DNA of 64,000 bases from the IMG/VR virus record IMGVR_UViG_3300013004_000026, positions 104,428 through 168,427 of that record; one strand, given 5' to 3'. Origin of the DNA: a virus. The notes beneath the pieces are model-generated. The model had not been told where the DNA came from and did no database searches. It was given only the letters and a program-made list of their open reading frames with translations. A program made the translations under genes and the position numbers. Shown here one piece after another: positions 3,729 through 35,210 of this stretch (positions are counted from its first letter, which is position 1; every line of letters starts with the position of its first letter).

Positions 3729-4508
3729 TTACTGTTCTAGCTCTTTCAATTCACTTATAAACTCTGCTTCTGGAATGCGTGTGCGAGTATTTTTACTGCC
3801 CAGCACCACCACAATTCTATCGCCCAAATCAGTGTCCATGAGCATGACAATGCATCCGCCACTGGTAGTTATCCAACCAGTCTTGCTTACTATCACTCGC
3901 TGAGTTCTACCAACCAAGGGATTGGTTTGAGGAAATAAAAAATACTTTTTCTTTAGTTTGATTTGTACTTTGGTCTTTTGACTGGCTTCAATCACTGCAC
4001 CATAAGTTCTGGCCGCACGAACAAGCATGACAAGTTCTCTAGCAGTACTGACATTTCTAGCATCTAGGCCTGTGGGCTCATATACCACACTGTTGACCAT
4101 GCCCAGTGTTTTCATCTTGATGTTCATTTCATCAACACAGGCTCTAAGCCCGCCGGGGTAGTGTTCGCACAAGGTCTGTGCAGCACGGTTGTCACTCTTG
4201 ACCATGGCCAGTTCAATCAAGGTGCGACGACTCAGAGTTTTTATCTTTCTGGGAATATGACTTTTAGGGGCTCGAGCCAGGGTAAGCTGTTCCTCCATGC
4301 TTTGACCTGCGTCTAACACAGTCATTACTGTGAGTAGTTTTGTGATACTGGCTATGCTGCGAACTTGATCCGTGTTATCGCTGCGGATTATGTTTCCTTG
4401 TGGATCTGACACAAGCCAGCTTTGTGCGGTAAGGTGTCCTTTTGCGACAGTTGACCCATGACCACAAATGGCGAAAAGTACCAATCCAATAATAATTTTA
4501 TTGAACAA
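3729..4508 (-). CDS. D-alanyl-D-alanine endopeptidase/carboxypeptidase (peptidase S11, PBP7-like)
   Basis: 259 residues with all three penicillin-binding motifs: SITK at 54-57 (nucleophile S54), SDN at 105-107 and KTG at 209-211 (SKTGWITTSGG). An N-terminal hydrophobic signal (residues 1-22) directs it to the periplasm. The short length, lacking the C-terminal beta domain of PBP5, matches PBP7/PbpG, which cleaves or trims peptidoglycan cross-links. A functional-looking S11 enzyme is unusual in a phage. It lies downstream of the CHASE2 cyclase and has a late-type motif 23 bp upstream, so late expression for wall remodelling or lysis is inferred. Confidence 0.88.
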   Translation of the reverse strand: MFNKIIIGLVLFAICGHGSTVAKGHLTAQSWLVSDPQGNIIRSDNTDQVRSIASITKLLTVMTVLDAGQSMEEQLTLARAPKSHIPRKIKTLSRRTLIELAMVKSDNRAAQTLCEHYPGGLRACVDEMNIKMKTLGMVNSVVYEPTGLDARNVSTARELVMLVRAARTYGAVIEASQKTKVQIKLKKKYFLFPQTNPLVGRTQRVIVSKTGWITTSGGCIVMLMDTDLGDRIVVVLGSKNTRTRIPEAEFISELKELEQ

Positions 4509-4529: not shown

Positions 4530-6593
4530 TTATTTAGAAGTGGCACGATATACGCCATCCCAATCCTTGGGCAGTTTGGCCCGTTTCATTTCTTCACAGC
4601 GCAGGATCCAAAGTTCATAGTAGTGATCCATTTGTCCGTCAAACTCGCCTGTGAGTTCTTGGCACAGTTTGATAGCTGCATCAAACTTTTGCTGTCTATA
4701 CAGCACAATCATTTCATCATGAGTTTCTTTGGCCATGATGTACTCGGGCATGCCACCTGCATTGGTAGTCAACGGAGTGTATATATTTAACCCAATTGCT
4801 TTGCCTTTCACCGCAATGCAATCTAGTTCCAGGCACAAGAAATCATCCTTGACCATTTGATAGGTGTCCGGGCCAATGATTATGAGCACCCCATAGCCTT
4901 TGGTTTGTCCTTCCAGTCGAGCAGCTACAGACACCGGATCGCCCAGCACATCGTATCCCATCTTACCTTCAGATCCAATATTGCCTACCAAGATCTTACC
5001 GGTGTTGACACCGGCGCCCATGCCCACTGGTGGTTTGCCGATGCTGGCCAGGTGGTTGTTAAACTGTTCTACCGCTTGGATCATTTCCATAGTAGTCTTG
5101 ACTGCACGATAGGCATGACGGTCGTCGTTAACTGGTGCACCGTGTATGTGCAAACTGGCGTCGCCGATGAACTTGATCAAACAGCCATCATTGGCAAACA
5201 CAGGTCGGCTGATCGCAGTCATGTATTCATTCATGATGGCAGTGAAGCCTTCGACATCTGCACCATACTTTTCTCCCAGTCCAGTAAAGTTGCGCATGTC
5301 TGTCATGATCACTGACAGCACTTTTTCTTCACCGCCCAACTTGATCAGCTCGGGATTCTTTTGCAGTCGTTCAACAATCACGGGACTCACATATGACCCA
5401 AATTGTTTCTTGATCTGTTGCTTCTGTAAGAACTCACTCACAAACTTAACGCCGTAAGTATGCAAAGCCACGAGCACAATACCAGCCGTGATTGCTGTCG
5501 CGTCTGCCAAGACGAGCCAGTTACTGAAAATATACTGAGTAACAGGAGCCACGGCAACGACCCCAAAAACAGTTGCACCCAAACCAACATAAGTCCACCT
5601 TGATAAAGAAATAATAATTAGTCCCAATAACAGCAATGTCAGAATCTCAGCGCCATCTGCATAGTCCGGACGCTGAATGGTAACATTGTTAAACATGGTT
5701 CCAATCACAGCAGCCTGCGCATCGTTGGGATACACCGCTCCTATGCTGGTGGGCACAGGATTTGAAATACCAGCTGCGGTAGGACCCACAAGGACTAGTG
5801 CGCCTTTAAGGTCTGCAGGCAGTTGTGTAATACTATAAGCGTGTGACTTTTGTGACCAGTCAATCCATATGCGACCAAGATTGTCCGTGGCAATTGGACC
5901 AAATTTGGGTATGCGCATTTTTTCAACGCCATACTCATTTAACTTTATTTGAAAGGTGGTGTCACCTGCTGCTACTCGCAACACTTCCATACCCAAACTT
6001 GGGTACAGAATGTCATTGACGCCAAATATCAAAGGCAGTCTTCGATTGACGCCATCTATTTCTGGCAGCGTGTGAGTACCACCTATGCCTGCCGCAGCAT
6101 TTTCTATAGCAGGAATGTTAGCAATAATACCTGGATAGTTTACAATGTTTTCGATCCACTCTGGCCCAAGCACTGCACTGCCAGGATTGCGAGGTTTGTT
6201 TTTTGTTTGATCACCTGGTACATTGGCAATGACCACAGGATATTTTTGCATTACCGCAGCTAGAGCAGCATCCCCGCCTAGCCTGTCTGTGTCCGGCATG
6301 AGCACATTCAGCACCACCAATCCTGCACCACGATTGTAAAGATCTTCTATCATGCGAGCATAGGTGTCTCGCTTGAATGGCCACTGTCCGTACTTGTCTA
6401 AAGCAGTTTCGTCAATGTTGGCCGTAACAATGTTGTTTTGTGTAGGAGCTTTGTCAGCTATTAGAGTATCAAAGTAGCGTAGTCTTATACTTTCTACAAA
6501 GACAGGATCAGCAATTCTTATACTTATAATAAGTGCCAATGTTAAAAGTGCGGTCCACGGATTTGACAGCACAGCTTTGATTTTGTTTTTCAT
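4530..6593 (-). CDS. CHASE2-domain membrane adenylate cyclase (class III)
   Basis: 687 residues. One N-terminal membrane span (12-30), an extracytoplasmic CHASE2 region (about 35-310, with the typical 'VTANIDE..L..YGQWPF.R..YA' start), three C-terminal membrane spans (about 315-380) and a cytoplasmic class III cyclase domain (about 420-600). Metal ligands D432 (TDMRNFT) and D478 (FIGDAS), adenine-specifying K474 and D548, and transition-state R559 are present. The transition-state Asn of GDxVNxAAR is Ser here (S555, GDPVSVAAR). Makes, or once made, cAMP in response to a periplasmic signal. CHASE2 cyclases often neighbour FecR proteins in bacteria; a FecR gene is 3 kb upstream. Confidence 0.9.
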   Translation of the reverse strand: MKNKIKAVLSNPWTALLTLALIISIRIADPVFVESIRLRYFDTLIADKAPTQNNIVTANIDETALDKYGQWPFKRDTYARMIEDLYNRGAGLVVLNVLMPDTDRLGGDAALAAVMQKYPVVIANVPGDQTKNKPRNPGSAVLGPEWIENIVNYPGIIANIPAIENAAAGIGGTHTLPEIDGVNRRLPLIFGVNDILYPSLGMEVLRVAAGDTTFQIKLNEYGVEKMRIPKFGPIATDNLGRIWIDWSQKSHAYSITQLPADLKGALVLVGPTAAGISNPVPTSIGAVYPNDAQAAVIGTMFNNVTIQRPDYADGAEILTLLLLGLIIISLSRWTYVGLGATVFGVVAVAPVTQYIFSNWLVLADATAITAGIVLVALHTYGVKFVSEFLQKQQIKKQFGSYVSPVIVERLQKNPELIKLGGEEKVLSVIMTDMRNFTGLGEKYGADVEGFTAIMNEYMTAISRPVFANDGCLIKFIGDASLHIHGAPVNDDRHAYRAVKTTMEMIQAVEQFNNHLASIGKPPVGMGAGVNTGKILVGNIGSEGKMGYDVLGDPVSVAARLEGQTKGYGVLIIIGPDTYQMVKDDFLCLELDCIAVKGKAIGLNIYTPLTTNAGGMPEYIMAKETHDEMIVLYRQQKFDAAIKLCQELTGEFDGQMDHYYELWILRCEEMKRAKLPKDWDGVYRATSK
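4531..4537 (-). promoter_or_regulatory. Late-type promoter motif CTAAATA
   Basis: Lies 22 bp upstream of the D,D-peptidase ATG (4508), overlapping the stop region of the cyclase gene. Confidence 0.4.
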
Positions 6594-6646: not shown

Positions 6647-6949
6647 TTACACAGATTCACCTAGTAACAAAGTAGAACCATCACCAACACCCACAATGCA
6701 AGCAATGCCTTCTGTGTTCATTTGCAGCATGGTCCAGGTGCCCAGTTTTTCATTTACAAACAAAGTATACCTGGTGTGGTCCACTGGATTTTTAGCTGAC
6801 CAAATTGGTTTTTCGTTATAGTTAGACAAGGAAAAAAGCAAACTTTCAATGCTGTCGCACAGTACCGGTTTACGAGCTTCAAATGGTTGGGCATTGACAT
6901 TGGATAGTATTGACGCAAATGCTACGCATGACATAATTAATTTTTTCAT
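6647..6949 (-). CDS. Small secreted protein of unknown function
   Basis: 100 residues from the ATG at 6949, fixed by GGAGG 6 nt upstream. Clear Sec signal peptide (MKKLIMSCVAFASILSNVNA, cleavage after about residue 20) and a small mature domain of about 80 residues with two Cys. No family recognised. It sits alone between the adhesin terminator and the cyclase, with its own late-type motif 22 bp upstream; probably periplasmic, perhaps working with the envelope genes around it. Confidence 0.7.
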   Translation of the reverse strand: MKKLIMSCVAFASILSNVNAQPFEARKPVLCDSIESLLFSLSNYNEKPIWSAKNPVDHTRYTLFVNEKLGTWTMLQMNTEGIACIVGVGDGSTLLLGESV

Positions 6950-7030: not shown

Positions 7031-9382
7031 TTAGTTAAATACCCATCTGATGCTTGCCTGTGCTGTGGAGTGTGACACACCATTTTGATACTGCTGTCCC
7101 ACAGTAATACCTCCCACAATGTTTTGTCTTGGAGCAAAGTTGATTCCTGCTCTAACAGTGCTTAGGCTAGTATCTGTGTGACTGGCTTCTAGCATGAAAT
7201 TCACAGCGTCTTTGATCACAGTGTCATAGCGCAAGCCCAGTTCACTCACTGTGCGAGTACGATTAACACTGTCATATGACATGGCTGTGATAGCATCACC
7301 AGACTCTATCAGTGCATTGCGCTTGTTCTGTTCCACACGAATACCACCAAACGGCCTAAAGCCGCGCCAGTCTGGCGTATACAATCTGTTGCTGATCCAA
7401 GCATCTGCACCTGTGGTTTTACCAGAGTTTGAATAACCTAGGTCTGGCAACAGATGATAGTTGGTAAAACTGTTCTGAGCATAACCTACATCAGTTTTGA
7501 ACAACCAATTGTTATGGTTGTACAGGCTGTAGATACCCACATGGTCTTTGGTAAGTGATCCACCTGCATCTTGCCCTGACAGTGTGCCGCGCACATGATT
7601 GTATTGTAGACCCACTACCCAGTTGCCCTTGATCTGTTTTTCGTGCCCAACACCAAGGCGACGGTTGGTTAACGAGTAGGTGTCGTTGGTGTTGGTTGTG
7701 CCACCTTCTGTAACTAGATACCACCAGCCTTTTTCCTGACTACCAGCATTACGAGTTCTGCTGGTCAATCCTTCACCATTGCTGGTATGACGACTTAACA
7801 CATCGCTGTCCAAGTTCATGTTCATACGATTGTTAGCTGCCTCCAACTGACTGTATTGATCAATTCTAGTGTAATAGTTTTGATTGCTTGAAGTTGTTAC
7901 AACTTCGTTGGTAGTAGTTACATTGGTTGTGACATCGTTACGCACAGTCACAGTTGTCACTGGAGTTCCGTCGGCGGTAGTAGTAGTACCATCACTCCAG
8001 GTTGTTACTGTTCTAGGAGTGGTAACTGTGGTCACTGTTACAGGTGTTGTTTGAGTTGTAGTAGTGGTCACAGGTGTTGTGCTTACCACTGTGGTTGTAC
8101 GCACCACTGCCAACTGTTTGTTATCAGCTGTGGCGTCACCGCGGTTATTGGCATGAGTAACTACCTCTACAGTGTTGCCACGCACAATAGTAGCACTTGT
8201 TACTGTGGTGCCTGGGGTTTCTGTTGTCACAACCTGCGAAGTACCAGGTGCGGTGCTGACCACAGTGGGGGTAGTATTCAAGCTAGATGTCGCTCCGGAT
8301 GTGCCAGGATTGGCCACTGTACCATCGCCTGTGTCTGTGCTGGTTGTTGTGCTGGCGCTGTTGTAGTAATAGCTGACTTCAGATACTTGCACACTGTTAC
8401 AATTTTCAGTTCCCAACCAACCACCACCGTAGGCCGCCATACAGTTTGTCATGTTAGGATATAAATCCAGAGCCTTGGTGCTGTCAAAGGTGATAAAGTA
8501 ATACACATACGCATTGGTATTGGTAAAAGTGATATCGCTAGATGCAGTGAAGCGACTGTCACTGAGAGTTATGGCTTGATTGTCAACAATAGTAGTCCAA
8601 GTCTTGCCATCATTGGAGCCAAACAAACTGAATTTGCTAGGATCTCTTGGAGCATAGTCGTTGGCAGTGGTTATAGTTAACTTTTCCAGCACACGACCTT
8701 GATCCAGCTTGATTGTAAAACCAGCACTGGCACGATCAAAGTTCAGGTATTTTGTGCCTGAGTTGCCATCAATCACATTGGTAGCACCTTCTCCCGACGG
8801 ACTGTTATTGCTAGTTGGAGTCACTTGTACCACATTAGCACTGGTAATTGCTGTGTATGTTGGCGTGGTGCTGCCGCTACCGGCTGTTTGCCCTGCTGCC
8901 AATGGGGTGGTGCTGGCCCAGGTGTAACTGCTTATATCACCGGCACTAACACTGGTGTCCATATTGGTAAAACTGGCACTGGCACCGTAATTGTAGCCCT
9001 CTGCTGTGGAAATTACATTTCCAAGCCATCCACTACCAAGATAAAAGATAGCTCCACTTCCCAGTGCTGTTATCTGTCCTGTAGAGTGGATTATTCTATT
9101 CAGTGTGTTGTCACTGTTGTACAATCCCATACCATGAGTGCCATCACCATTGTCAATGAATTTGAAATATTGACCAGCGGTGGCTGTGACAGTTTGGAAA
9201 TTGGAATCATACGGTGCAATAAAATTTGAAGCGTTTAAGGTAGTTCCGCTCCAGTTGTATTGCACATCAAAGATTTGATTAATACTAAACGCACCATCTG
9301 TTACTGCGGCATTGGTGTTTGAAACCATGCCCATGGCCAAGGCCATAGCGGCCACGAAGGCCATTACTTTTTTTATTATCAT
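7031..9382 (-). CDS. Autotransporter-like outer-membrane adhesin with discoidin-like domain
   Basis: 783 residues from the ATG at 9382 (GGAG 7 nt upstream; an upstream TTG is rejected). Signal peptide 1-26 ending in NAA. About 175-310 resembles an F5/8 (discoidin) carbohydrate-binding domain (NVIDGNSGTKYLNF, FSLFGSNDGKTW). About 345-495 is a Thr/Val-rich low-complexity stalk. About 540-783 has the alternating pattern of an autotransporter beta-barrel (RLGVGHEKQI, GLQYNHVRG, FRPFGGIRVEQN) ending WVFN; the usual last residue is Phe, here followed by Asn. I infer a surface adhesin displayed on the infected cell or carried by the phage. Bordered by a late motif and a strong terminator. Confidence 0.75.
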   Translation of the reverse strand: MIIKKVMAFVAAMALAMGMVSNTNAAVTDGAFSINQIFDVQYNWSGTTLNASNFIAPYDSNFQTVTATAGQYFKFIDNGDGTHGMGLYNSDNTLNRIIHSTGQITALGSGAIFYLGSGWLGNVISTAEGYNYGASASFTNMDTSVSAGDISSYTWASTTPLAAGQTAGSGSTTPTYTAITSANVVQVTPTSNNSPSGEGATNVIDGNSGTKYLNFDRASAGFTIKLDQGRVLEKLTITTANDYAPRDPSKFSLFGSNDGKTWTTIVDNQAITLSDSRFTASSDITFTNTNAYVYYFITFDSTKALDLYPNMTNCMAAYGGGWLGTENCNSVQVSEVSYYYNSASTTTSTDTGDGTVANPGTSGATSSLNTTPTVVSTAPGTSQVVTTETPGTTVTSATIVRGNTVEVVTHANNRGDATADNKQLAVVRTTTVVSTTPVTTTTTQTTPVTVTTVTTPRTVTTWSDGTTTTADGTPVTTVTVRNDVTTNVTTTNEVVTTSSNQNYYTRIDQYSQLEAANNRMNMNLDSDVLSRHTSNGEGLTSRTRNAGSQEKGWWYLVTEGGTTNTNDTYSLTNRRLGVGHEKQIKGNWVVGLQYNHVRGTLSGQDAGGSLTKDHVGIYSLYNHNNWLFKTDVGYAQNSFTNYHLLPDLGYSNSGKTTGADAWISNRLYTPDWRGFRPFGGIRVEQNKRNALIESGDAITAMSYDSVNRTRTVSELGLRYDTVIKDAVNFMLEASHTDTSLSTVRAGINFAPRQNIVGGITVGQQYQNGVSHSTAQASIRWVFN

Positions 9383-9461: not shown

Positions 9462-10565
9462 TTATTGCTGTGTTATAGTGAGTGAGCTGGTACTGCCTTT
9501 GTTGACATTTTGTATAATGGTCTGACCGTCTTGGTTCAAAGTAAATGTAGCATTTTTATTGGTATCAAAAGTAGCAGTGGCCGTGTGTACACCTGCTTTG
9601 TACAGTGTGACCTTGCTGGAATCTTCATTGAAATAATACAACAGTCCCAGTGACTTGTTGGCGGCATAGCCAGGCAACACTGGTATATCTAGTTCGTTGC
9701 TCAACAACGAAGCATTTTGTCTGTCTAGTTCATTCAATTCATTGTAGGCCAATAAATCTGCGTCTAAGTCATTTCTATCCAAGGCTGTTTTTTCATCTAG
9801 CGCATTGACATCTAATTTTGAAAATTTCAGTAGGTCAATATCTAATTCATTGAAATCCAACAGTCCTTTTTCTTTTCTGGCTATGCCTGCTTGCTCTGCG
9901 TCTGTTATTTCTTTTGGCTTGCTGATGATCAACATGTTGCTGATATTGGCTTGATCCAATCTTACCACCGTGGGCTCGGTAGGCGGTTGATAGGCACTGT
10001 TGACCATGGTGGCCTGATAAGGAACATCCAATAACACAACTCCTGCTAGATTTCTGACTTCTATCACACCTGTAACACAACCGCCTTTGGGATCACAACT
10101 GGGCAGCAGCATCACAAGGCTGCGCCCTAGTTCATCCACTGTCATGGAAAAATCAGTACCTCGTACGGCAATGGTAGCAGTGGGTGTTTTGATAGCTACC
10201 TGCTGGGGATTGTTTTTGGCTATCTGTCCCGAGGCATATCGTGCCGTACCCAAGGCCATGTTGATGGCCAACTTGCCTGATCCTTTCTTTGGATCATATA
10301 CAAAATCATCTATGATCATTTTTGAATGTTCAGTGAGCTTGACTGTGGTTTTGTCTTCAAAGGTAAGTTCGGCCCGAGACTTGGCTGTGGAAATGGCGTC
10401 GTTCATTTCAACACCAGTATTCACAGCCGAGGGAATACTTTTCTTGTTCCTCAGAATCTCTGTAGGACCAGTTTGTTCTGTTACTTTGCCAACTGCGGCA
10501 GCAGCTTCAATCGGACTGAGTAACAGTAACGTTGTTATTAGAACCGTTGCTGGTAATAACTGCAT
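9462..10565 (-). CDS. FecR-domain periplasmic protein
   Basis: 367 residues from the ATG at 10565, which begins a clear signal peptide (MQLLPATVLITTLLLLSPIEA); a longer in-frame start would place charged residues before it. FecR domain at about 20-150 with the family signature TPTATIAVRGTDF. The second half holds Leu/Asp/Asn-rich repeats (NELDIDLLK, SKLDVNALD, NDLDADLLA, NELDRQNASLL), 9-10 residues each, unusual for FecR proteins. It lacks the N-terminal anti-sigma domain, so it is a free periplasmic FecR domain. Overlaps the curlin-like gene by 59 bp. FecR-CHASE2 gene neighbourhoods are frequent in bacteria, suggesting a functional link to the cyclase at 4530-6593. Confidence 0.85.
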   Translation of the reverse strand: MQLLPATVLITTLLLLSPIEAAAAVGKVTEQTGPTEILRNKKSIPSAVNTGVEMNDAISTAKSRAELTFEDKTTVKLTEHSKMIIDDFVYDPKKGSGKLAINMALGTARYASGQIAKNNPQQVAIKTPTATIAVRGTDFSMTVDELGRSLVMLLPSCDPKGGCVTGVIEVRNLAGVVLLDVPYQATMVNSAYQPPTEPTVVRLDQANISNMLIISKPKEITDAEQAGIARKEKGLLDFNELDIDLLKFSKLDVNALDEKTALDRNDLDADLLAYNELNELDRQNASLLSNELDIPVLPGYAANKSLGLLYYFNEDSSKVTLYKAGVHTATATFDTNKNATFTLNQDGQTIIQNVNKGSTSSLTITQQ

Positions 10566-11178
10566 TTTTATTTGACACTCCACTCTGTACCAGTGTAACC
10601 GCATTTGGTGCACCGTTTGCTCCACTGCCCGATACCGTAATTTCTCCTGAATGCAACCCCACACCAGATGCAGTGTGTGTTACATTGTTGTAGTTGCCGG
10701 TTATGGCTATGGTGCTTCTTGTTGTTCCTCCGCTGAGTGTTTGTACAGTGTTGTTATTATTACCAACTATTTCAGATCTAATGGTGTTTGCATTGCAGTT
10801 GGAAGCCAATGCTGTACCGCAGCCTACAGTTTGATTATTGCCACTACCATCAGCAGATATAACCACAGTGGCTCCAGTGCCATTGGTTTCATTGTTTACC
10901 ACTACAGAAACAGTGTTACTGGCGCCTATTTGCGTGATAGTCACGCTGTTAAGATCGCCTTTGATCAGTGCAGGATCATCTGTGTTGCCTGATCCGTCAA
11001 CATTTCCATTCACAAGATTACCAGCTCCTGTTTGCGTGATTGATACTGTGGAATTATCTCCTATTTGCTCAATGTAGACATCATTGGCCCAACTGTTGGA
11101 TAGCATCAGCCCTGACGCTGATAGCATGACCAACAAACTTTTCCACAATCTACTTTTATTTTTTATTTTAGTTTTCAT
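10507..11178 (-). CDS. Curlin-like (CsgA/CsgB-type) repeat protein
   Basis: 223 residues from the ATG at 11178 (GGAG 5 nt upstream). Signal peptide of about 30 residues ending SNSWA, then Asn/Thr/Val/Gly-rich curlin-style repeats: IEQIGDNSTVSITQTGAGN, NSVTITQIGASNTVSV, NAVTLVQSGVSN, NNVTVTQSD. The Q-x-G-x-x-N spacing matches curlin strand-turn units but the central repeats are divergent and longer than E. coli CsgA (151 aa). Directly downstream of csgG/csgF, so it is the likely secreted substrate, forming an amyloid-like fibre or a surface coat. Whether it truly polymerises is unknown. Confidence 0.75.
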   Translation of the reverse strand: MKTKIKNKSRLWKSLLVMLSASGLMLSNSWANDVYIEQIGDNSTVSITQTGAGNLVNGNVDGSGNTDDPALIKGDLNSVTITQIGASNTVSVVVNNETNGTGATVVISADGSGNNQTVGCGTALASNCNANTIRSEIVGNNNNTVQTLSGGTTRSTIAITGNYNNVTHTASGVGLHSGEITVSGSGANGAPNAVTLVQSGVSNKNAVITSNGSNNNVTVTQSD

Positions 11179-11208
11179 TTTAGCTCCAGATGCTTGTGCA
11201 TCCATGTG

Positions 11209-11361
11209 TTACTTTCCCTTACTGCTCTGCTCCTTTGAAGGCGGTGCTCTCATCATTTTTGCTTCTTGCATGACTTTATCTCTCGCTGGGCTGCTCCGTT
11301 GCGGGGGCTGCGCTGGCATCTGACTGGGATGGCGCGACGGTTTGTGATTGAACCAACTCAT
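11209..11361 (-). CDS. Small basic protein overlapping the csgG 3' end (50 aa)
   Basis: 50 residues beginning MSWFNHKPSRHPSQMP, rich in Pro, Ser, Lys and Arg. It overlaps the last 86 bp of csgG in another frame, yet has an ideal ribosome-binding site (AAGGAG, 7 nt before ATG) and stops 31 bp before the curlin-like gene. Function unknown; the site strength argues that it is translated. Confidence 0.45.
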   Translation of the reverse strand: MSWFNHKPSRHPSQMPAQPPQRSSPARDKVMQEAKMMRAPPSKEQSSKGK

Positions 11362-12175
11362 CTTTGTTCTCCTTAATTTGCGTTGTGCCACTGGCTGCAA
11401 GTTTTTTATATCTCCACAAGCCTTTCTTTTCGCCTGCTATGACCATGTCATGTACTGCTTGTTCTATGGCAACTCGCACAGCATAGGTAGTCGGTTCATT
11501 AAGAGCAGATCCATTTTCAAGCTCAAGGGCCTTGGTACCTGCGTCTACAAAACGCAACACACCCACATTGTGCTGAGTGCTATAGATAGTTTTGCTAACA
11601 GCATTGCTTATTAGAACTTCACCACTGTTAACACTGATCAATCTGAGACTGATAACGATTTCATCCACACGGTATTGTTGGCTTCCACCAATGCCTAAAA
11701 ATCTAGCACCGTTGCCGCCACTTCTTATGTTGCTGTCATACCCTATAATGCCACCTTCAATCAGCACTCCTGCCACAGTCATTGGTTTCAATGGCCTAGC
11801 ATCTTTTCCTTCATATACTTCTCGTTGATTGCGTATCAGCTGGCGCTCTTTGATCAGATTATCAAGCCCCACACGCTCTACCACTTTGAACCAGTTGTTG
11901 GCGTCTTGCAGTGATTTTATTAAAAACACTTCTGCGCCCTGAGTGACTGCTTTTGAAAACACAGCCAATCTGTCATTGGGTTTCATCTGCCCTGTTTTGT
12001 CCGCAAATCCATACACAGCTATGGTTATAGGTGGCCCATCCAAGTCAGGTAATTTTGTTACTAGATTTTCTTTTGGCAGTAGTGCAACAGGCTCTTCTTT
12101 GTTCAGGTCCATGTTTACATGAGCACATCCCGAGAGAGCTGTCGCAAGGATTGTGTATAGCAAGATGTGTTTCAT
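11276..12175 (-). CDS. csgG: CsgG: curli secretion channel lipoprotein
   Basis: 299 residues (E. coli CsgG 277). Lipoprotein signal with lipobox LSGC (Cys17), then the CsgG fold: ITIAVYGFADKTGQ, a DRL..FSKAVTQGAEVFLIKSL helix, WFKVVERVGLDNLIKERQLI, and the transmembrane hairpin region (GGIIGYDSNIRSGGNGARFLGIGGS), closely following E. coli CsgG order. Forms a nonameric outer-membrane pore for unfolded curlin subunits. Start overlaps the csgF stop (TAATG). CsgG homologues are known in some marine T4-like phages; here a curlin-like gene lies directly downstream. A 35-residue Ser/Ala/Glu C-terminal tail is extra. Confidence 0.93.
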   Translation of the reverse strand: MKHILLYTILATALSGCAHVNMDLNKEEPVALLPKENLVTKLPDLDGPPITIAVYGFADKTGQMKPNDRLAVFSKAVTQGAEVFLIKSLQDANNWFKVVERVGLDNLIKERQLIRNQREVYEGKDARPLKPMTVAGVLIEGGIIGYDSNIRSGGNGARFLGIGGSQQYRVDEIVISLRLISVNSGEVLISNAVSKTIYSTQHNVGVLRFVDAGTKALELENGSALNEPTTYAVRVAIEQAVHDMVIAGEKKGLWRYKKLAASGTTQIKENKDELVQSQTVAPSQSDASAAPATEQPSER

Positions 12176-12621
12176 TAAAATGCAAAGCTCGCTATTGGGA
12201 CAATTATTTCTGTTCTGCCACCTGTAGCTTCAATTATGGTCAAAGTTACATCGGTGCCAGTTTTAACCCAACTGATATTTGTACCTTGAAAGTCCATGCT
12301 ACCGCTGTTGCCGCCACCTTCAGCAAACATTTGATCAGCCAGCTGTTTGGATAATTGGGCGTAGATACGGGCTTCTACATTTACAAGAAATTTTGCAAGA
12401 TTTGTTTGTTTTGCGGCTGCTTCTGCTTTGGCCAATGCTGCGGCTGCTTCTGCTTTGATTTCTTTGGCTTTGTTTTCTTCCATCTGGAAGATGGAAAGTA
12501 CATGTTGGCTGTAGCCGTTGCCCGGTATAAACGCAGGGCTTTGAAATTGATGCACCAGCTCGGTTGGACGAGCAACCGCTGATACAGTGACTAGCGCCAC
12601 CACCAGCAGTAACCTTTTCAT
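12175..12621 (-). CDS. csgF: CsgF: curli assembly factor
   Basis: 148 residues (E. coli 138). Signal peptide, then the CsgF N-terminal motif ELVHQFQSPAFIPGNG, matching 'LVY.F.NP.FGGNP' of CsgF that plugs into the CsgG pore, an Ala/Glu helical linker (KEIKAEAAAALAKAEAAA) and a C-terminal beta region (ISWVKTGTDVTLTIIEATGG...I.VP). RBS AAGGAG. First gene of the curli-like run, translationally coupled to csgG. The helical linker is longer than in E. coli. CsgE is not found in the window. Confidence 0.88.
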   Translation of the reverse strand: MKRLLLVVALVTVSAVARPTELVHQFQSPAFIPGNGYSQHVLSIFQMEENKAKEIKAEAAAALAKAEAAAKQTNLAKFLVNVEARIYAQLSKQLADQMFAEGGGNSGSMDFQGTNISWVKTGTDVTLTIIEATGGRTEIIVPIASFAF

Positions 12622-12696: not shown

Positions 12697-12703
12697 TATT
12701 TAC
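12697..12703 (-). promoter_or_regulatory. Late-type promoter motif GTAAATA(C)
   Basis: 75 bp upstream of csgF (ATG 12621), between csgF and the stop of the upstream gene; would drive the curli-like operon. Confidence 0.45.
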
Positions 12704-12730
12704 AACATCAAGAGCATCAATTCACTGGTG

Positions 12731-13313: not shown

Positions 13314-13864
13314 TAGGCATGGGCCCTTTCTTTAGGGTTAACAACTTTTGCTTTTTTATATATTTCTTGAACACCAATAGCTTGATAATAACAATCCATA
13401 AGAGCATTGTGTGCTGCTCTGCGCGATTTATCTCTTGGGTCGCCGTGTACACCAAACAATGTACGACTGTCACGAATTTGCCAGAATTGCCATGGTGTGG
13501 GCTTGCCCAGCTGGCGATACAAGTTTTCTAAAATAACAATATCAAACGCAGGCCCTTGACACCAAATACTGTCAACTCCTACTAGAAATCTGTTCAGACT
13601 GGAGGACAATGTTTCTAGACTCACTCTGTTTGATTCGCCCATGGCTTCTTCAAAAACTTCAGATTCTTGTTTTCCCCACCAGTCAACAGTTTCTTGTTGT
13701 ACATGACGGCCCAGGCTCAGTTGTTCGTCGACATCAATGCGCAGATATAAACCTGCTTCTGCATCAACATCCTCCTCCCAGGGATTGAATTTCACAGCGC
13801 CAATGGTTAAGATCACGCTTTCTGGGCGTGTGCTCAGAGTTTCTAAATCAAGCATCACATCCAT
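13313..13864 (-). CDS. dexA: DexA-like 3'-5' exonuclease (DEDD family)
   Basis: 183 residues with DEDDh-type catalytic residues: D6 and E8 (MLDLETLS), D108 (GPAFDIVIL), H152 and D157 (AAHNALMDC). Length and the WWGKQ and RDSRTLF segments fit T4 DexA / exonuclease VIII-like proteins, which degrade DNA or trim 3' ends during phage growth. In T4 DexA is non-essential and acts on host DNA or recombination intermediates. Overlaps its neighbours by 1 bp on both sides. Confidence 0.88.
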   Translation of the reverse strand: MDVMLDLETLSTRPESVILTIGAVKFNPWEEDVDAEAGLYLRIDVDEQLSLGRHVQQETVDWWGKQESEVFEEAMGESNRVSLETLSSSLNRFLVGVDSIWCQGPAFDIVILENLYRQLGKPTPWQFWQIRDSRTLFGVHGDPRDKSRRAAHNALMDCYYQAIGVQEIYKKAKVVNPKERAHA

Positions 13865-14193
13865 TAGCCGTCTACCTCAAGTTTGATTTGCAAGGGAAAT
13901 CCGTTGTTTCTTGCCAGCAGTGTGGTTTCTATACCTTTTTGCTCGGCCAATTCAAAAGGATACACTGCTACAACACCACTGCCTTCTTCATGGATTTGAA
14001 CAGTTTTGGCTTCGGCAGCTTCGGGTCCGTATTTGAATATATTTTTCAAGCATTCAACAATAAATTCCATGGTAGTAATTTCATCATTGACAAAAATTAC
14101 TTTGAATAGTTTTGGCTCTTGAACATTCAACTTTGGATCATGTTTCAAAGCATTTTCTTGTCTGGGCTTGATAGCAGTGTCGGTTGGCATCAT
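13864..14193 (-). CDS. clpS: ClpS adaptor protein
   Basis: 109 residues. The ClpS core begins KLFKVIFVNDEITTMEFIVECL, matching the conserved 'YKVxLLNDDxTPMEFVV' region with the Asn-Asp that binds N-terminal amino groups, followed by the A..K..QIHEEGSGVV helix-strand and the 'LLARNNGFPL' end. ClpS delivers N-degron substrates to ClpA of the host. A phage copy, in the same operon as phage ClpX, implies redirection of host proteolysis. Two ATGs in tandem; either could start it. Confidence 0.92.
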   Translation of the reverse strand: MMPTDTAIKPRQENALKHDPKLNVQEPKLFKVIFVNDEITTMEFIVECLKNIFKYGPEAAEAKTVQIHEEGSGVVAVYPFELAEQKGIETTLLARNNGFPLQIKLEVDG

Positions 14194-14205
14194 TTTCTTT
14201 CCAAA

Positions 14206-14235
14206 AGTAAAAGGCTACGAGTTGCCTCGTAGCCT
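14206..14235 (-). terminator. Rho-independent terminator after hsp20
   Basis: 9-bp perfect stem AGGCTACGA/TCGTAGCCT (loop about 6 nt) followed on the minus strand by TTTTAC. Begins 9 bp after the Hsp20 stop at 14244 and separates it from clpS. Confidence 0.75.
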
Positions 14236-14243
14236 ACATTATA

Positions 14244-14696
14244 TTACTTAGAGAAAGTAATTGCAACCTTCTTGGGTTTTTGTGTTTCCGGAACTTTGTG
14301 TTCCAGAGTCACAGTGAGAATGCCATTGGCCACACCAGCACCTATCACTTCCACACTTTCATTTAGTGGAAACACTCGTTCAAAGTTACGAGTGGCCAGG
14401 CCGCGATGTAGATATTGCCAGGTTTCTTCACTGTCGCGCTTGCGTTCACCCCGAATGGTCAGCACACTCTGTCCATAAGTATTTGTCACAGTTTCAATGT
14501 CTAATTCATTTTCCAAAAAGCCAGCCACTGCCATTTCGATAATGTATCTATTATCACCTGTGCGAATGATATTGTGCGGTGGGTAGTTTTCTTGTTTGCT
14601 CACTTGGAAAGAGCGTTGAATCTCTTCAAACAGTTGGTCAAAACCAACAAAACTGCGATGTAGGGTGGGTAGATCTAGAGTTACATAAGTGGTCAT
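14244..14696 (-). CDS. Small heat-shock protein Hsp20 (IbpA-like)
   Basis: 150 residues from the ATG at 14696 (AAGGAG upstream). N-terminal region LHRSFVGFDQLFEEI, alpha-crystallin domain with YPPHNIIRTGDNRYIIEMAVAGF, LTIRGERK and 'HRGLATRNFERVFPL', then 'VANGILTVTLEHKVPE' and a C-terminal PKKVAI in place of the I-x-I anchor. This is the IbpA/IbpB type. Holds unfolded proteins; Hsp20 is common in T4-like marine phages, probably aiding virion assembly. Has its own perfect late promoter. Confidence 0.95.
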   Translation of the reverse strand: MTTYVTLDLPTLHRSFVGFDQLFEEIQRSFQVSKQENYPPHNIIRTGDNRYIIEMAVAGFLENELDIETVTNTYGQSVLTIRGERKRDSEETWQYLHRGLATRNFERVFPLNESVEVIGAGVANGILTVTLEHKVPETQKPKKVAITFSK

Positions 14697-14754
14697 TTTA
14701 TTTTCTCCTTTAAGCAAAATATGACTTGTAAGACCCCGTAGGCATCTTACATTT

Positions 14755-14762
14755 TATTTATA
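14755..14762 (-). promoter_or_regulatory. Perfect T4-type late promoter TATAAATA
   Basis: Exact TATAAATA, 58 bp upstream of the hsp20 ATG at 14696. The best match in the window and the anchor for recognising the other copies. Confidence 0.7.
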
Positions 14763-14796
14763 CTACATAAAACTGCATAAGTCAAGTATTTTGATA

Positions 14797-15033
14797 CTAA
14801 TAACTTTTTGGAGGCAAAGCATCGCTGGCTAATTTTTTGAGCCAGCGTCTACGAGCTGCACTTTTGGCTTTTTTCCTGGCCGTAGTAGGTTTTTCATAAA
14901 ATTCACGCTCGCGCAGTTCTTGCAGTAACCCGCTTTCGGTAACTTTCTTTTTGAATTTGCGCAGTGCTTTTTCCACTTGGTCGTTGACCACTTCTACTCG
15001 TAAACCAGACAATTGGTTAGACTTAAATCTCAT
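14797..15033 (-). CDS. rpsU: Ribosomal protein bS21
   Basis: 78 residues from the ATG at 15033 (AGGAG 4 nt upstream). Contains the bS21 signature: VEVVNDQVEKALRKFKKKV, 'LREREFYEKPTTARKKAK', and a basic Arg/Lys C-terminus. bS21 helps select start sites on the 30S subunit. Phage bS21 copies occur in aquatic phages and could exchange into host ribosomes. This matters here because several phage genes seem to be leaderless or lack a clear Shine-Dalgarno site. Immediately downstream of clpX. Confidence 0.95.
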   Translation of the reverse strand: MRFKSNQLSGLRVEVVNDQVEKALRKFKKKVTESGLLQELREREFYEKPTTARKKAKSAARRRWLKKLASDALPPKSY

Positions 15034-15040
15034 AATTCTC

Positions 15041-16231
15041 CTATTGAGCAACAGTATTAATTATCATCGATTCATCAATGATTAAATCTTTAATGCCTTC
15101 TTTTTTCAGCTGAGTCATATTGAACAGCAAAGGCATCATGGTTGTTTCTAAAACAGCTTTGAGTCCTCGAGCACCTATACCCATGGCATGAGCCTGTTGA
15201 GCAATAGCAAGTACTGCACTGTCATCAAACTGTAATTCAATTCCGTCTGTTTGAAAAAAGAACTGCATCTGTGCCAGTAGACTATTTTTTGGTTCTAATA
15301 ACACTCGCATTAGATCTTCTAAATTCAAACTATGCAATGGTACCGTGACTGGAAACCTTCCAACAAATTCTGGAATCATGCCATAGCGCATGAAATCTTC
15401 AGCTGTGGCGCTGTCTGTGTGATTGGTTGTTTGCAAGTTAGTAAACCCAATGCTGCTGCCGCGTAATCGTTTGGCAATAATACCATCAAGCCCGTCAAAG
15501 GCTCCGCCGGCCACAAACAATATATTACTTGTATCAATTTCAACTGTTTCCAAAGCTGGATGCTTTTTATTTCCATTCATTGCAACACGACATTTTGTTC
15601 CTTCAACCATTTTAAGCAATGCCTGTTGTACACCTTCGCCCGACACATCTCTATGAAGACTAGCACTTTCACTCTTACGGCCAATTTTATCAATTTCATC
15701 AATAAACACAATGCCCTGCTCGCAGCGTTCTACATCATTGTCTGCTTCAGATAGCAAACGGCCAACCAAGGTTTCCACATCCTCGCCAACATAGCCGGCT
15801 TGTGTGAGGCTGGTAGCATCTGCAATTACAAATGGCACATTCAAATATCGTGCAATTGTTTTGGCCAACAGAGTTTTGCCAGACCCAGTAGGACCATAAA
15901 ATAACAGGTTACTTTTTTCAATTTCAATTTTAGGTTTGAAAAACACTCGTTTGTAGTGATTGACCACAGTAACGCACATGGCTATTTTGGCGGCGTCCTG
16001 CCCCACAATGTAGGTATCTAGAAATCGTTTGATTTTTACAGGATCAAGAGCTCGGCTGATTTTTTTATCAGACTTGATATTTTCAATGCGTTCTTTGTCA
16101 AGAATGTTGGCACACAGTTCAATGCATTCATTGCAAATTGCAGCTTCATTGGCCACAATCAGTTTGTCAACTTCACTGCGAGCCTTGCCGCAAAAATCGC
16201 AGCTCATGTGCTGCACTTGATTTTCAGCCAT
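15041..16231 (-). CDS. clpX: ClpX AAA+ unfoldase
   Basis: 396 residues, near full length (E. coli 424). Zinc-binding domain C11/C14/C33/C36, Walker A GPTGSGKT (113-120), pore loop GYVG (146-149), Walker B VFIDEID (175-181), the RDVSGEGVQQALLK segment, and a sensor-II GIGARG. The IGF loop that docks ClpP is kept (261-263), so it should pair with host ClpP; no phage ClpP is in the window. Likely reprograms host proteolysis together with ClpS. Overlaps the preceding gene by 8 bp. Confidence 0.96.
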   Translation of the reverse strand: MAENQVQHMSCDFCGKARSEVDKLIVANEAAICNECIELCANILDKERIENIKSDKKISRALDPVKIKRFLDTYIVGQDAAKIAMCVTVVNHYKRVFFKPKIEIEKSNLLFYGPTGSGKTLLAKTIARYLNVPFVIADATSLTQAGYVGEDVETLVGRLLSEADNDVERCEQGIVFIDEIDKIGRKSESASLHRDVSGEGVQQALLKMVEGTKCRVAMNGNKKHPALETVEIDTSNILFVAGGAFDGLDGIIAKRLRGSSIGFTNLQTTNHTDSATAEDFMRYGMIPEFVGRFPVTVPLHSLNLEDLMRVLLEPKNSLLAQMQFFFQTDGIELQFDDSAVLAIAQQAHAMGIGARGLKAVLETTMMPLLFNMTQLKKEGIKDLIIDESMIINTVAQ

Positions 16232-33591: not shown

Positions 33592-33918
33592 TTATATTCG
33601 AAAACTTTCCCCGCATCCGCATTCGCCTTTGGAATTTGGATTGCGAAACTCGAACCCTTCATTGAGTCCTTGTCTTACATAGTCTACTTCTAGTCCACTG
33701 ATGTACACATGGTCTTGACCATTTACCCATACCGTGGCACCATTGCTTTCATACTGGAACCAGTCACGAGTAACAGGCGCAGTGTCCATGTATTCTAACA
33801 CATAAGCCAGGCCCGAGCAACCAGTGGTTTTTACACCAATGCGTATGCCCACTCCATGTCCTCGGCGTTCAATATGTGCAATAACTTTTTTAGCAGCTTG
33901 TTCAGTCAGTGTTATCAT
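33592..33918 (-). CDS. iscA: IscA/HesB-type iron-sulphur carrier
   Basis: 108 residues with the A-type carrier cysteines C34 (TTGCSGLAY) and C100/C102 (GECGCGESF). Start overlaps the upstream stop (ATGA). Transfers Fe-S clusters to apo-proteins. Same operon as IscU, so the phage has both a scaffold and a carrier; possible clients in the window are the radical-SAM enzyme and other Fe-S proteins. Confidence 0.94.
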   Translation of the reverse strand: MITLTEQAAKKVIAHIERRGHGVGIRIGVKTTGCSGLAYVLEYMDTAPVTRDWFQYESNGATVWVNGQDHVYISGLEVDYVRQGLNEGFEFRNPNSKGECGCGESFRI

Positions 33919-34376
33919 GTGTGCCAGATCTCATCAAAACCTTCTTGTTCAGTGGGTTCTTCCCAGTCGCCCAGCATTTTTTCCAGCACTGAGTCAGGAA
34001 TCTCTTTACCTGGTCTGCTGTCAAGGCGGCGTCGTAATTCCATTGGCTCCGGGGTAGGAAAAACTACAGCCACCATCTTGTAGTCAGGCAGCATGCGAAA
34101 CTTTCTAGCACGGCTGGCTGTGGTAGTAGAAGTTTGATCCCAGATGATATCTTTTTCTTGTTCTCTAGCATCAATCACCTGAGCAGCCATGATGTTCACA
34201 GCCTTGGGCATGTACTCGTCAAATATTTCAGTATAAGTTTTTCCCTGGCGGTCAGCTTCAATTTGCACCCAAACATCTGTTGACGCATAGGTACAATCTT
34301 TTGCCCAGTCTTGATTAGACACCCAGGTGCTTTTGCCCGAGCCAGGTACGCCTACTAGGATATATGCTGTTGGCAT
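33915..34376 (-). CDS. P-loop kinase, polynucleotide-kinase-like
   Basis: 153 residues from the ATG overlapping the IscU stop (TGATG). AYILVGVPGSGKSTW Walker A, 'YASTDVWVQ' after the first helix, 'DIIWDQTSTTTASRARK' and 'VVFPTPEPMELRRR', which match the kinase half of T4 polynucleotide kinase and related zeta-toxin-like kinases. No phosphatase domain, so it is a kinase-only form. May phosphorylate 5' ends in nucleic-acid repair. Confidence 0.8.
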   Translation of the reverse strand: MPTAYILVGVPGSGKSTWVSNQDWAKDCTYASTDVWVQIEADRQGKTYTEIFDEYMPKAVNIMAAQVIDAREQEKDIIWDQTSTTTASRARKFRMLPDYKMVAVVFPTPEPMELRRRLDSRPGKEIPDSVLEKMLGDWEEPTEQEGFDEIWHT

Positions 34377-34747
34377 CAATGTTTGCTCTTGTAGTCAATT
34401 ATGGCTGCTTGAATCGCGTCTTCAGCAAGAATTGAGCAATGTATTTTAACTGGGGGGAGTGCAAGATGTTCGGCGATCTCAGAATTCTTAATAGATCCTG
34501 CTTCTGCCAGCGTCTTACCTTTGACCCACTCCGTAACGAGTGATGAACTTGCAATGGCTGAGCCGCAGCCATAAGTCTTGAATTTTGCGTCCGTGATAAT
34601 GCCATCTTGCACCTTGATTTGTAGTTTCATTACATCACCACATGCAGGTGCTCCCACCATGCCTGTGCCTACTGTGTCGTCAATTTCTAATTTTCCTACG
34701 TTACGGGGGTTTTCGTAGTGATCTATAACTTTGTCTGAATATGCCAT
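34376..34747 (-). CDS. iscU: IscU iron-sulphur cluster scaffold
   Basis: 123 residues from ATG 34747, whose first residues MAYSDKVIDHYENPRNVG are almost those of E. coli IscU. Ligands C36 (APACGD), D38, C61 (YGCGSAIASSS) and C104 (KIHCS) are all present, and the LPPVK motif (97-101) recognised by the HscA chaperone is intact. Complete IscU in a phage is uncommon; with IscA it suggests that cluster supply limits infection, or that host Isc is being replaced. Confidence 0.96.
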   Translation of the reverse strand: MAYSDKVIDHYENPRNVGKLEIDDTVGTGMVGAPACGDVMKLQIKVQDGIITDAKFKTYGCGSAIASSSLVTEWVKGKTLAEAGSIKNSEIAEHLALPPVKIHCSILAEDAIQAAIIDYKSKH

Positions 34748-34748
34748 T

Positions 34749-35210
34749 TTATTGTGTGTTAGATGTATCGTAGGTCTTGGCAAAGATATCTGCTTTGACA
34801 GCACCATAATCACCAGGTCCATGTTTGACAATGTAGTCATTGCCTGTGGTGTAGTTTAGATTGCCCCAGCTGGTATGTAGTACACCGTCATGGTCAGCAA
34901 GTTTTGCTACCTTGAGTATTTTCTTAGGTGTGCATTCACCGTCACCGAGATCGTCTTTGTATTCACGGAACTTTTCTGGTGTGATAGGATACTGTTCGCC
35001 TTTGGGGCCTGTCATGATATAATGACCCGTATCGTAGCTAACAGGACCTTCTAGTGTTTCCACTGTGCCAGGGGCTTGTGCTATTTGGTATTTTTCAACA
35101 GCAGGCTTTTTGAATGTTTCAAATGATCCTTTTTCAAACCAAGCATCATTGATTGCTGTTTCGGCTTCAACTATCATATTACTGTACTTTCGAAAAAATA
35201 TTGAGTCCAT
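34749..35210 (-). CDS. PGDYG-family protein
   Basis: 153 residues. C-terminal half contains YIVKHGPGDYGAVKADIFAKTY, the defining motif of the PGDYG family, and the N-terminal half repeats a related pattern (ETLEGPVSYDTGHYIMTGPKGEQYPI), so it may be two copies of one beta domain. The family's function is unknown. Precedes iscU, 1 bp apart; late-type motif upstream. Confidence 0.7.
   Translation of the reverse strand: MDSIFFRKYSNMIVEAETAINDAWFEKGSFETFKKPAVEKYQIAQAPGTVETLEGPVSYDTGHYIMTGPKGEQYPITPEKFREYKDDLGDGECTPKKILKVAKLADHDGVLHTSWGNLNYTTGNDYIVKHGPGDYGAVKADIFAKTYDTSNTQ

Follow-up and report, generated by a model that had tools for sequence, protein, structure and literature searches.

Here, we describe a cassette of curli-type (type VIII) secretion genes in a 64,000-nucleotide stretch of viral DNA (the window), which covers bases 104428-168427 of the 168,427-base IMG/VR virus record IMGVR_UViG_3300013004_000026. 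A preliminary description, made from the letters alone, had placed csgF, csgG, a curlin-like gene and a FecR-domain gene in one operon at 9462-12621. The four genes do lie in this order, all on the minus strand and each recognised by its Pfam family, and the conserved module runs on past 9462 to 4530, so that the operon had been drawn too short and an autotransporter and a CHASE2-cyclase had been missed. From the promoter side, with lengths in amino acids (aa), the module reads as follows.

12697-12704, minus strand: TGTAAATA, a core resembling a T4-type late promoter, upstream of csgF (from the statistics of TAAATA across loci)
12175-12621, minus strand: csgF, 148 aa (PF10614, 2.4e-16)
11276-12175, minus strand: csgG, 299 aa, the lipoprotein-type outer-membrane pore (PF03783, 8.5e-54)
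10507-11178, minus strand: curlin-repeat protein, 223 aa, with signal peptide (PF07012, 2e-8, four stretches)
9462-10565, minus strand: FecR-domain protein, 367 aa, with signal peptide (PF04773, 1e-11)
7031-9382, minus strand: display-slot protein, 783 aa (Pfam, AlphaFold2 and Foldseek)
4530-6593, minus strand: protein with CHASE2 and class III adenylate cyclase domains, 687 aa (Pfam and catalytic residues)

The curli core and its conservation

Membership of the curli (type VIII) class is supported by the presence of CsgG, CsgF and a secreted curlin subunit. CsgG matches the solved CsgG by profile at 2e-63, and the invariant F..P.F..G.G segment of CsgF aligns with the N-terminus of the solved E. 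coli CsgF, the profile match to that N-terminus being weak (E 0.006). The two reading frames overlap as TAATG, the coupling that had been proposed. The curlin-repeat protein had been put forward as the probable substrate, with a match to the curlin hidden Markov model (HMM) set in advance as the check, and PF07012 does match. Its start is the ATG at 11178 common to close relatives, and viral and bacterial curlin profiles align with an hhalign probability of 98.5. The window protein carries a conserved cysteine pair; of 169 complete phage curlins, 160 have exactly two cysteines beyond the signal peptide, while bacterial curlins mostly have none. At the C-terminus of the window CsgG is a low-complexity tail, in the place of an SH3_3 domain in relatives. 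This domain (down to 4e-10) was seen in the related phages L010, L014, L017, L020 and L031, where it might tether the pore to peptidoglycan. CsgE had been described as absent, and PF10627 matched nothing in the window's record or in the long records of 12 relatives; its absence is not decisive for curli membership, because alphaproteobacterial modules also lack it (PMC9599517).

Relatives of CsgG are encoded in 314 viral stretches. In the surroundings of the 180 viral csgG loci that were fetched, counting a partner only where the contig was long enough, csgF accompanies csgG in 169 of 171 cases, curlin in 136 of 138, FecR in 96 of 98 and the cyclase in 62 of 62. Counted by clusters of similar CsgG sequences, the same partners are present in 39/41, 37/39, 34/36 and 30/30, which bears out the expectation that curlin would co-occur with csgGF in related phages; the only exceptions are CsgG-like loci of Caulobacter and Brevundimonas phages (L004 and L005). 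In pairs whose dS is not saturated, ratios of nonsynonymous to synonymous substitution (dN/dS) for csgF, csgG, curlin, FecR and cyclase lie mostly at about 0.05-0.3. On these sequence comparisons the cassette is real, conserved and under purifying selection.

In bacteria, 14 loci (L090-L103; Rhizobium, sphingomonads and related) have csgF-csgG and curlin, with neither FecR nor cyclase found in the fetched flanks of up to 10 kb. These alphaproteobacterial operons share the csgF-csgG and curlin-repeat genes with the window (CsgG 41-49% identical), from which they differ in those flanks and in curlins of which most have no cysteine pair. All or part of the phage-type cassette is also found on short contigs placed in bins of Rhodobacteraceae, Flavobacteriaceae, Pirellulales and Pelagibacter (L086-L089), which are probably phage contigs among bacterial ones.

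A predicted autotransporter with a putative lectin head in the window

The gene between FecR and the cyclase varies between phages, and we refer to this position as the display slot. In the window it encodes a protein with a signal peptide, a head domain of ~160 aa, an F5/8C (CBM32-like) domain, a stalk, a helix and a 12-strand barrel. AlphaFold2, run with 26 sequences, predicts the F5/8C sandwich at ~176-341, a beta stalk, the helix at 509-523 and a barrel of twelve strands at 553-781, for which the predicted local distance difference test (pLDDT) is mostly 85-97. The best PDB match in Foldseek is NalP (1uyn; E 4e-12, template modelling score 0.75 by target), and the top ranks are NalP, EstA, AaaA, Hbp and BrkA. 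In Pfam the window protein does not itself reach PF03797, which its barrel homologues in L020, L124 and L127 match at 5e-13 to 2e-12. By sequence, the F5/8C region matches the domain of a GH92 enzyme (5e-15) and CBM32 structures (2e-5).

With type Va autotransporters such as NalP and EstA the protein shares a 12-strand C-terminal barrel after a helix, a signal peptide and an N-terminal passenger, which may be exported to the cell surface. It differs from them in being phage-encoded within a curli cassette, in its F5/8C-type passenger and in its last residue, an Asn after Phe. The isolated Synechococcus phage DSL-LC03 encodes a related barrel (25% identical across 281 residues; E 3e-14) and, unlike the window, has no curli cassette beside the barrel gene in the stretch seen. 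In this cyanophage the autotransporter-annotated gene (L256, 4146-5795) lies directly downstream of two endolysin genes.

Exchange of heads and anchors in the slot

Assigned by Pfam and iterated HMMs, slot architectures fall into the following kinds.

Head domain, F5/8C and barrel: the window, L007, L106
Head domain, F5/8C and curlin: L111-L119, L121, L123, L131
F5/8C and curlin: L024, L026
Head domain and curlin: L033, L052
PA14 and curlin: the isolate HTVC008M, L058
Other heads of ~240 aa and curlin: L144, L146, L159, L163, L175
Barrel with other heads: L010, L013, L015, L020, L022
Curlin without a recognised head: Melnitz

The F5/8C domain on the window's barrel is 48-49% identical (E 1e-47 to 1e-52) to F5/8C domains borne on curlin in L024, L111, L112 and L123, and the same kind of curlin tail carries three unrelated non-curlin head families. 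The cassettes of HTVC008M and L144 are 82-95% identical, whereas their slot proteins share only ~20-45% per 60-column block; L007 and L013 have a barrel in common (~60%) but not their heads. These comparisons indicate that the slot holds exchangeable heads (F5/8C, PA14 and others) on either curlin repeats or an autotransporter barrel. In L023, L028 and L037 a barrel protein stands between csgF and csgG. Eight records, all fragments, have slot proteins with no nearby csg genes, and CsgG was not found in them. The slot of L039 (12465-13475) holds a phosphate-binding-like protein (PBP_like_2, 6.6e-36), and slot proteins of ~1445 aa in L011 (12898-17235) and L187 (12914-17254) have no Pfam match.

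The FecR-domain protein and the cyclase

In the window protein the FecR domain comes after a signal peptide and resembles PupR-type periplasmic domains in its fold. Within the window's record there is no match to Sigma70_r4_2 (PF08281) that could be a cognate sigma factor, and the architecture of a FecR anti-sigma protein (a cytoplasmic anti-sigma segment, a membrane segment and a cognate sigma factor) was not found. For both reasons, the position of the domain after a signal peptide and the lack of a Sigma70_r4_2 match, the label 'ferric citrate regulator', with iron or anti-sigma control, is unsupported. What stands of the preliminary 'periplasmic signalling-type' protein is a secreted protein of periplasmic type, for which a signalling role is plausible.

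The C-terminal region has six predicted strands, and its last part (window 9462-9500) closes with LTITQQ. A terminal motif [VIL]x[VIT]xQ, like that of curlins, is present in 124 of 130 phage FecR proteins, compared with 25 of 3084 background open reading frames (ORFs). We considered this C-terminus as a curlin repeat, a reading that is not established: the end motif is common to both, but its conservation is that of a single family. On the FecR C-terminus, a curlin-tail HMM did not rise above reversed-sequence noise, and hhalign against curlin gave a probability of 16-18%, above controls, with homology not significant. The motif is possibly a curlin-docking strand.

In the cyclase both metal-binding Asp residues, the adenine-specifying Lys and the Arg are invariant in 83 of 83 sequences; the fifth expected residue, the transition-state Asn, is a Ser in the window.

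Promoter and expression timing

A late-type promoter had been proposed ahead of the operon. In the 150 bases upstream of csgF, TAAATA is present at 96 of 126 distinct loci, where shuffles would give 28.8; upstream of csgG it occurs at 1 of 141 (15.9 expected) and upstream of the cyclase at 34 of 68 (11.4 expected). Across the whole window, the T4 late motif allowing one mismatch is not enriched (53 found, 49 expected). The late motif thus draws its support from the locus-based test, the window-wide test being non-significant, and the TAAATA pattern is consistent with a T4-type late promoter preceding csgF.

Neighbouring features and the phage

Three further reading frames lie in or beside the module.

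11209-11361, minus strand: ORF of 50 aa with a perfect Shine-Dalgarno sequence (AAGGAG), unconserved
6647-6949, minus strand: small secreted protein, 100 aa, whose family recurs near these modules
3729-4508, minus strand: Peptidase_S11 (D-Ala-D-Ala carboxypeptidase family), found after the cyclase in some relatives

The first had been described as a small protein following csgG with a perfect ribosome-binding site; that site is there, and the frame overlaps the 3' end of csgG in another frame, was not seen in those relatives that were inspected and is probably not a gene. Members of the small secreted family (~100 aa, at least two cysteines) recur beside the slot or elsewhere in these phages. 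The peptidase possibly belongs to the module.

Relatives of the window's phage include T4-like jumbo phages. In a search of 12 related records, T4 gp23 was found in all seven of 245-383 kb and in none of the five of 149-229 kb. The window's own 168-kb record is probably an incomplete fragment, because gp23 was not found in it yet is present in 7 of the 12 relatives. The window has a GC content of 44%. Elsewhere in it, a ClpX-like ATPase with a zinc finger (15041-16231), ClpS (13864-14193) and HSP20 (14244-14717) form a set at 13864-16231 that might possibly serve takeover of host proteolysis, and iron-sulphur assembly proteins lie at 33592-34840, namely an IscA-like (33592-33918) and an IscU/NifU_N-like protein (34376-34840).

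Relation to known phage cassettes

The preliminary description held that CsgG and CsgF alone were known in phages. A phage csgF/csgG pair with unidentified neighbours was reported in PMC7029224, and Buchholz et al. 2022 (PMC9004378) proposed a role in lysis and stated that csgA and csgB were missing. In myo- and podoviruses, curlin, FecR and cyclase were recognised by Wittmers et al. 2022 (PMC9599517), who pointed out that CsgE is lacking and considered aggregation, defence against superinfection and uptake as roles. The isolates HTVC008M and Melnitz both carry csgF-csgG-curlin-FecR-second curlin-cyclase, so the claim does not hold.

The cassette of pelagiphage HTVC008M has the order csgF-csgG-curlin-FecR-slot-cyclase and, like the window, no CsgE, with identities to the window of ~48% for CsgG, 37% for FecR and 35% for the cyclase. 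Its slot encodes a PA14 and curlin protein in place of the window's autotransporter with an F5/8C head. In contrast to HTVC008M, no histidine kinase was recognised immediately ahead of csgF in the window, which also differs in its GC content and has the large T4-like relatives noted above. A second curlin between FecR and the cyclase, a frequent but not universal trait of the pelagiphage type VIII secretion cassette, is lacking in the window and present in many relatives. The Methylophilales phage Melnitz (PMC9004378) has the same cassette (CsgG 48% and cyclase 43% identical to the window), its curlin having been found by tblastn; unlike the window, it lacks a barrel and has a second curlin, on which no head was recognised. 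The cassette itself is therefore of known kind. Text searches of PMC9599517 and of an incomplete body of literature turned up neither lectin-type heads on phage curlins nor an autotransporter in the cassette, and what is apparently new here is the variant slot with its exchange of heads and anchors, which we did not find described.

Proposed function and alternatives

The reading we prefer, and rate a shade above an even chance, is that of a phage type VIII secretion cassette extended by a surface-display protein and used for late surface adhesion. Late in infection, the CsgG/CsgF pore would be made and would export curlin-repeat subunits, which we infer to form fibres, while in parallel the autotransporter would display its head, putatively carbohydrate-binding, at the outer membrane. 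The FecR-domain protein and the CHASE2-cyclase would probably sense the state of the envelope or periplasm and raise cyclic AMP (cAMP) for a host effector. The infected cell, and envelope debris after lysis, could then stick to the glycans of nearby cells or particles, and the benefit to the phage would be that released virions meet new hosts. Late adhesion is favoured because it explains together the exchangeable heads, the two anchors for one head family and the late-type promoter. Rather more tentatively, at somewhat under an even chance, aquatic phages in general may share late surface display by an exchangeable head on a curlin fibre or barrel, with FecR and CHASE2-cyclase as obligatory parts.

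Several observations weigh against late adhesion. Melnitz-infected cells did not clump in culture (Buchholz et al., PMC9004378), with the qualification that the second curlin of Melnitz has no recognised head. The slot is empty in L027 and L046-L051, so a head is not obligatory, and in the window protein the first 170 residues are poorly predicted by AlphaFold2, while sugar binding by the F5/8C domain is suggested by homology. Without CsgE, export may be inefficient or ungated. At the position of the transition-state Asn of the cyclase, both the window and 44 of 83 sequences have Ser, and no cyclic-nucleotide (cNMP)-binding or CRP-like effector was found in the phage records searched; any cAMP signal would therefore act on a host protein.

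The same evidence bears on other proposed roles. If the late CsgG/CsgF pore depolarised or permeabilised the envelope and so timed lysis (PMC9004378), curlin and slot would be accessories; the late-type motif upstream of csgF, the missing CsgE gate and the position of the DSL-LC03 barrel gene behind endolysin genes would suit this, but a pore needs neither a conserved curlin (37 of 39 clusters, low dN/dS) nor exchangeable ligand-binding heads. We consider this quite unlikely, and prefer adhesion to a role purely as a pore or in lysis because cassettes as close as those of HTVC008M and L144 can carry unrelated heads. Superinfection exclusion, in which a coat of heads or fibres masks receptors or captures competing phages, was proposed in PMC9599517 and is in our view unlikely. 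Exchangeable heads are what would be expected of traits in phage-phage competition. The promoter motif, however, is late-type, whereas the classical T4 exclusion genes imm and sp act early.

Import of macromolecules, cofactors or iron carriers through an open CsgG channel during infection has also been proposed (PMC7029224 and PMC9599517), and a FecR domain and the phosphate-binding-like slot protein of L039 could be taken in its favour. Against it stand the lack of a Sigma70_r4_2 match in the record, the signal peptide at the start of FecR, the F5/8C and PA14 nature of the heads and the late motif, and we hold uptake to be very improbable. Equally doubtful is that fibres or autotransporter decorate or trap virions, clustering the progeny, rather than acting on cells: the late motif and surface display would allow this, as would the progeny retention put forward in the preliminary description, but curlin, FecR and slot protein have signal peptides and would be exported before lysis.

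For the purpose of phage curli genes, suggestions in print extend from pores and lysis to sibling capture. Late surface adhesion is a testable hypothesis to which two features of the slot point, namely heads that differ between near-identical cassettes and the use of a fibre or an autotransporter as alternative anchors. As HTVC008M, with a PA14 head, and Melnitz, with no recognised head, are both isolates, a laboratory comparison is possible.

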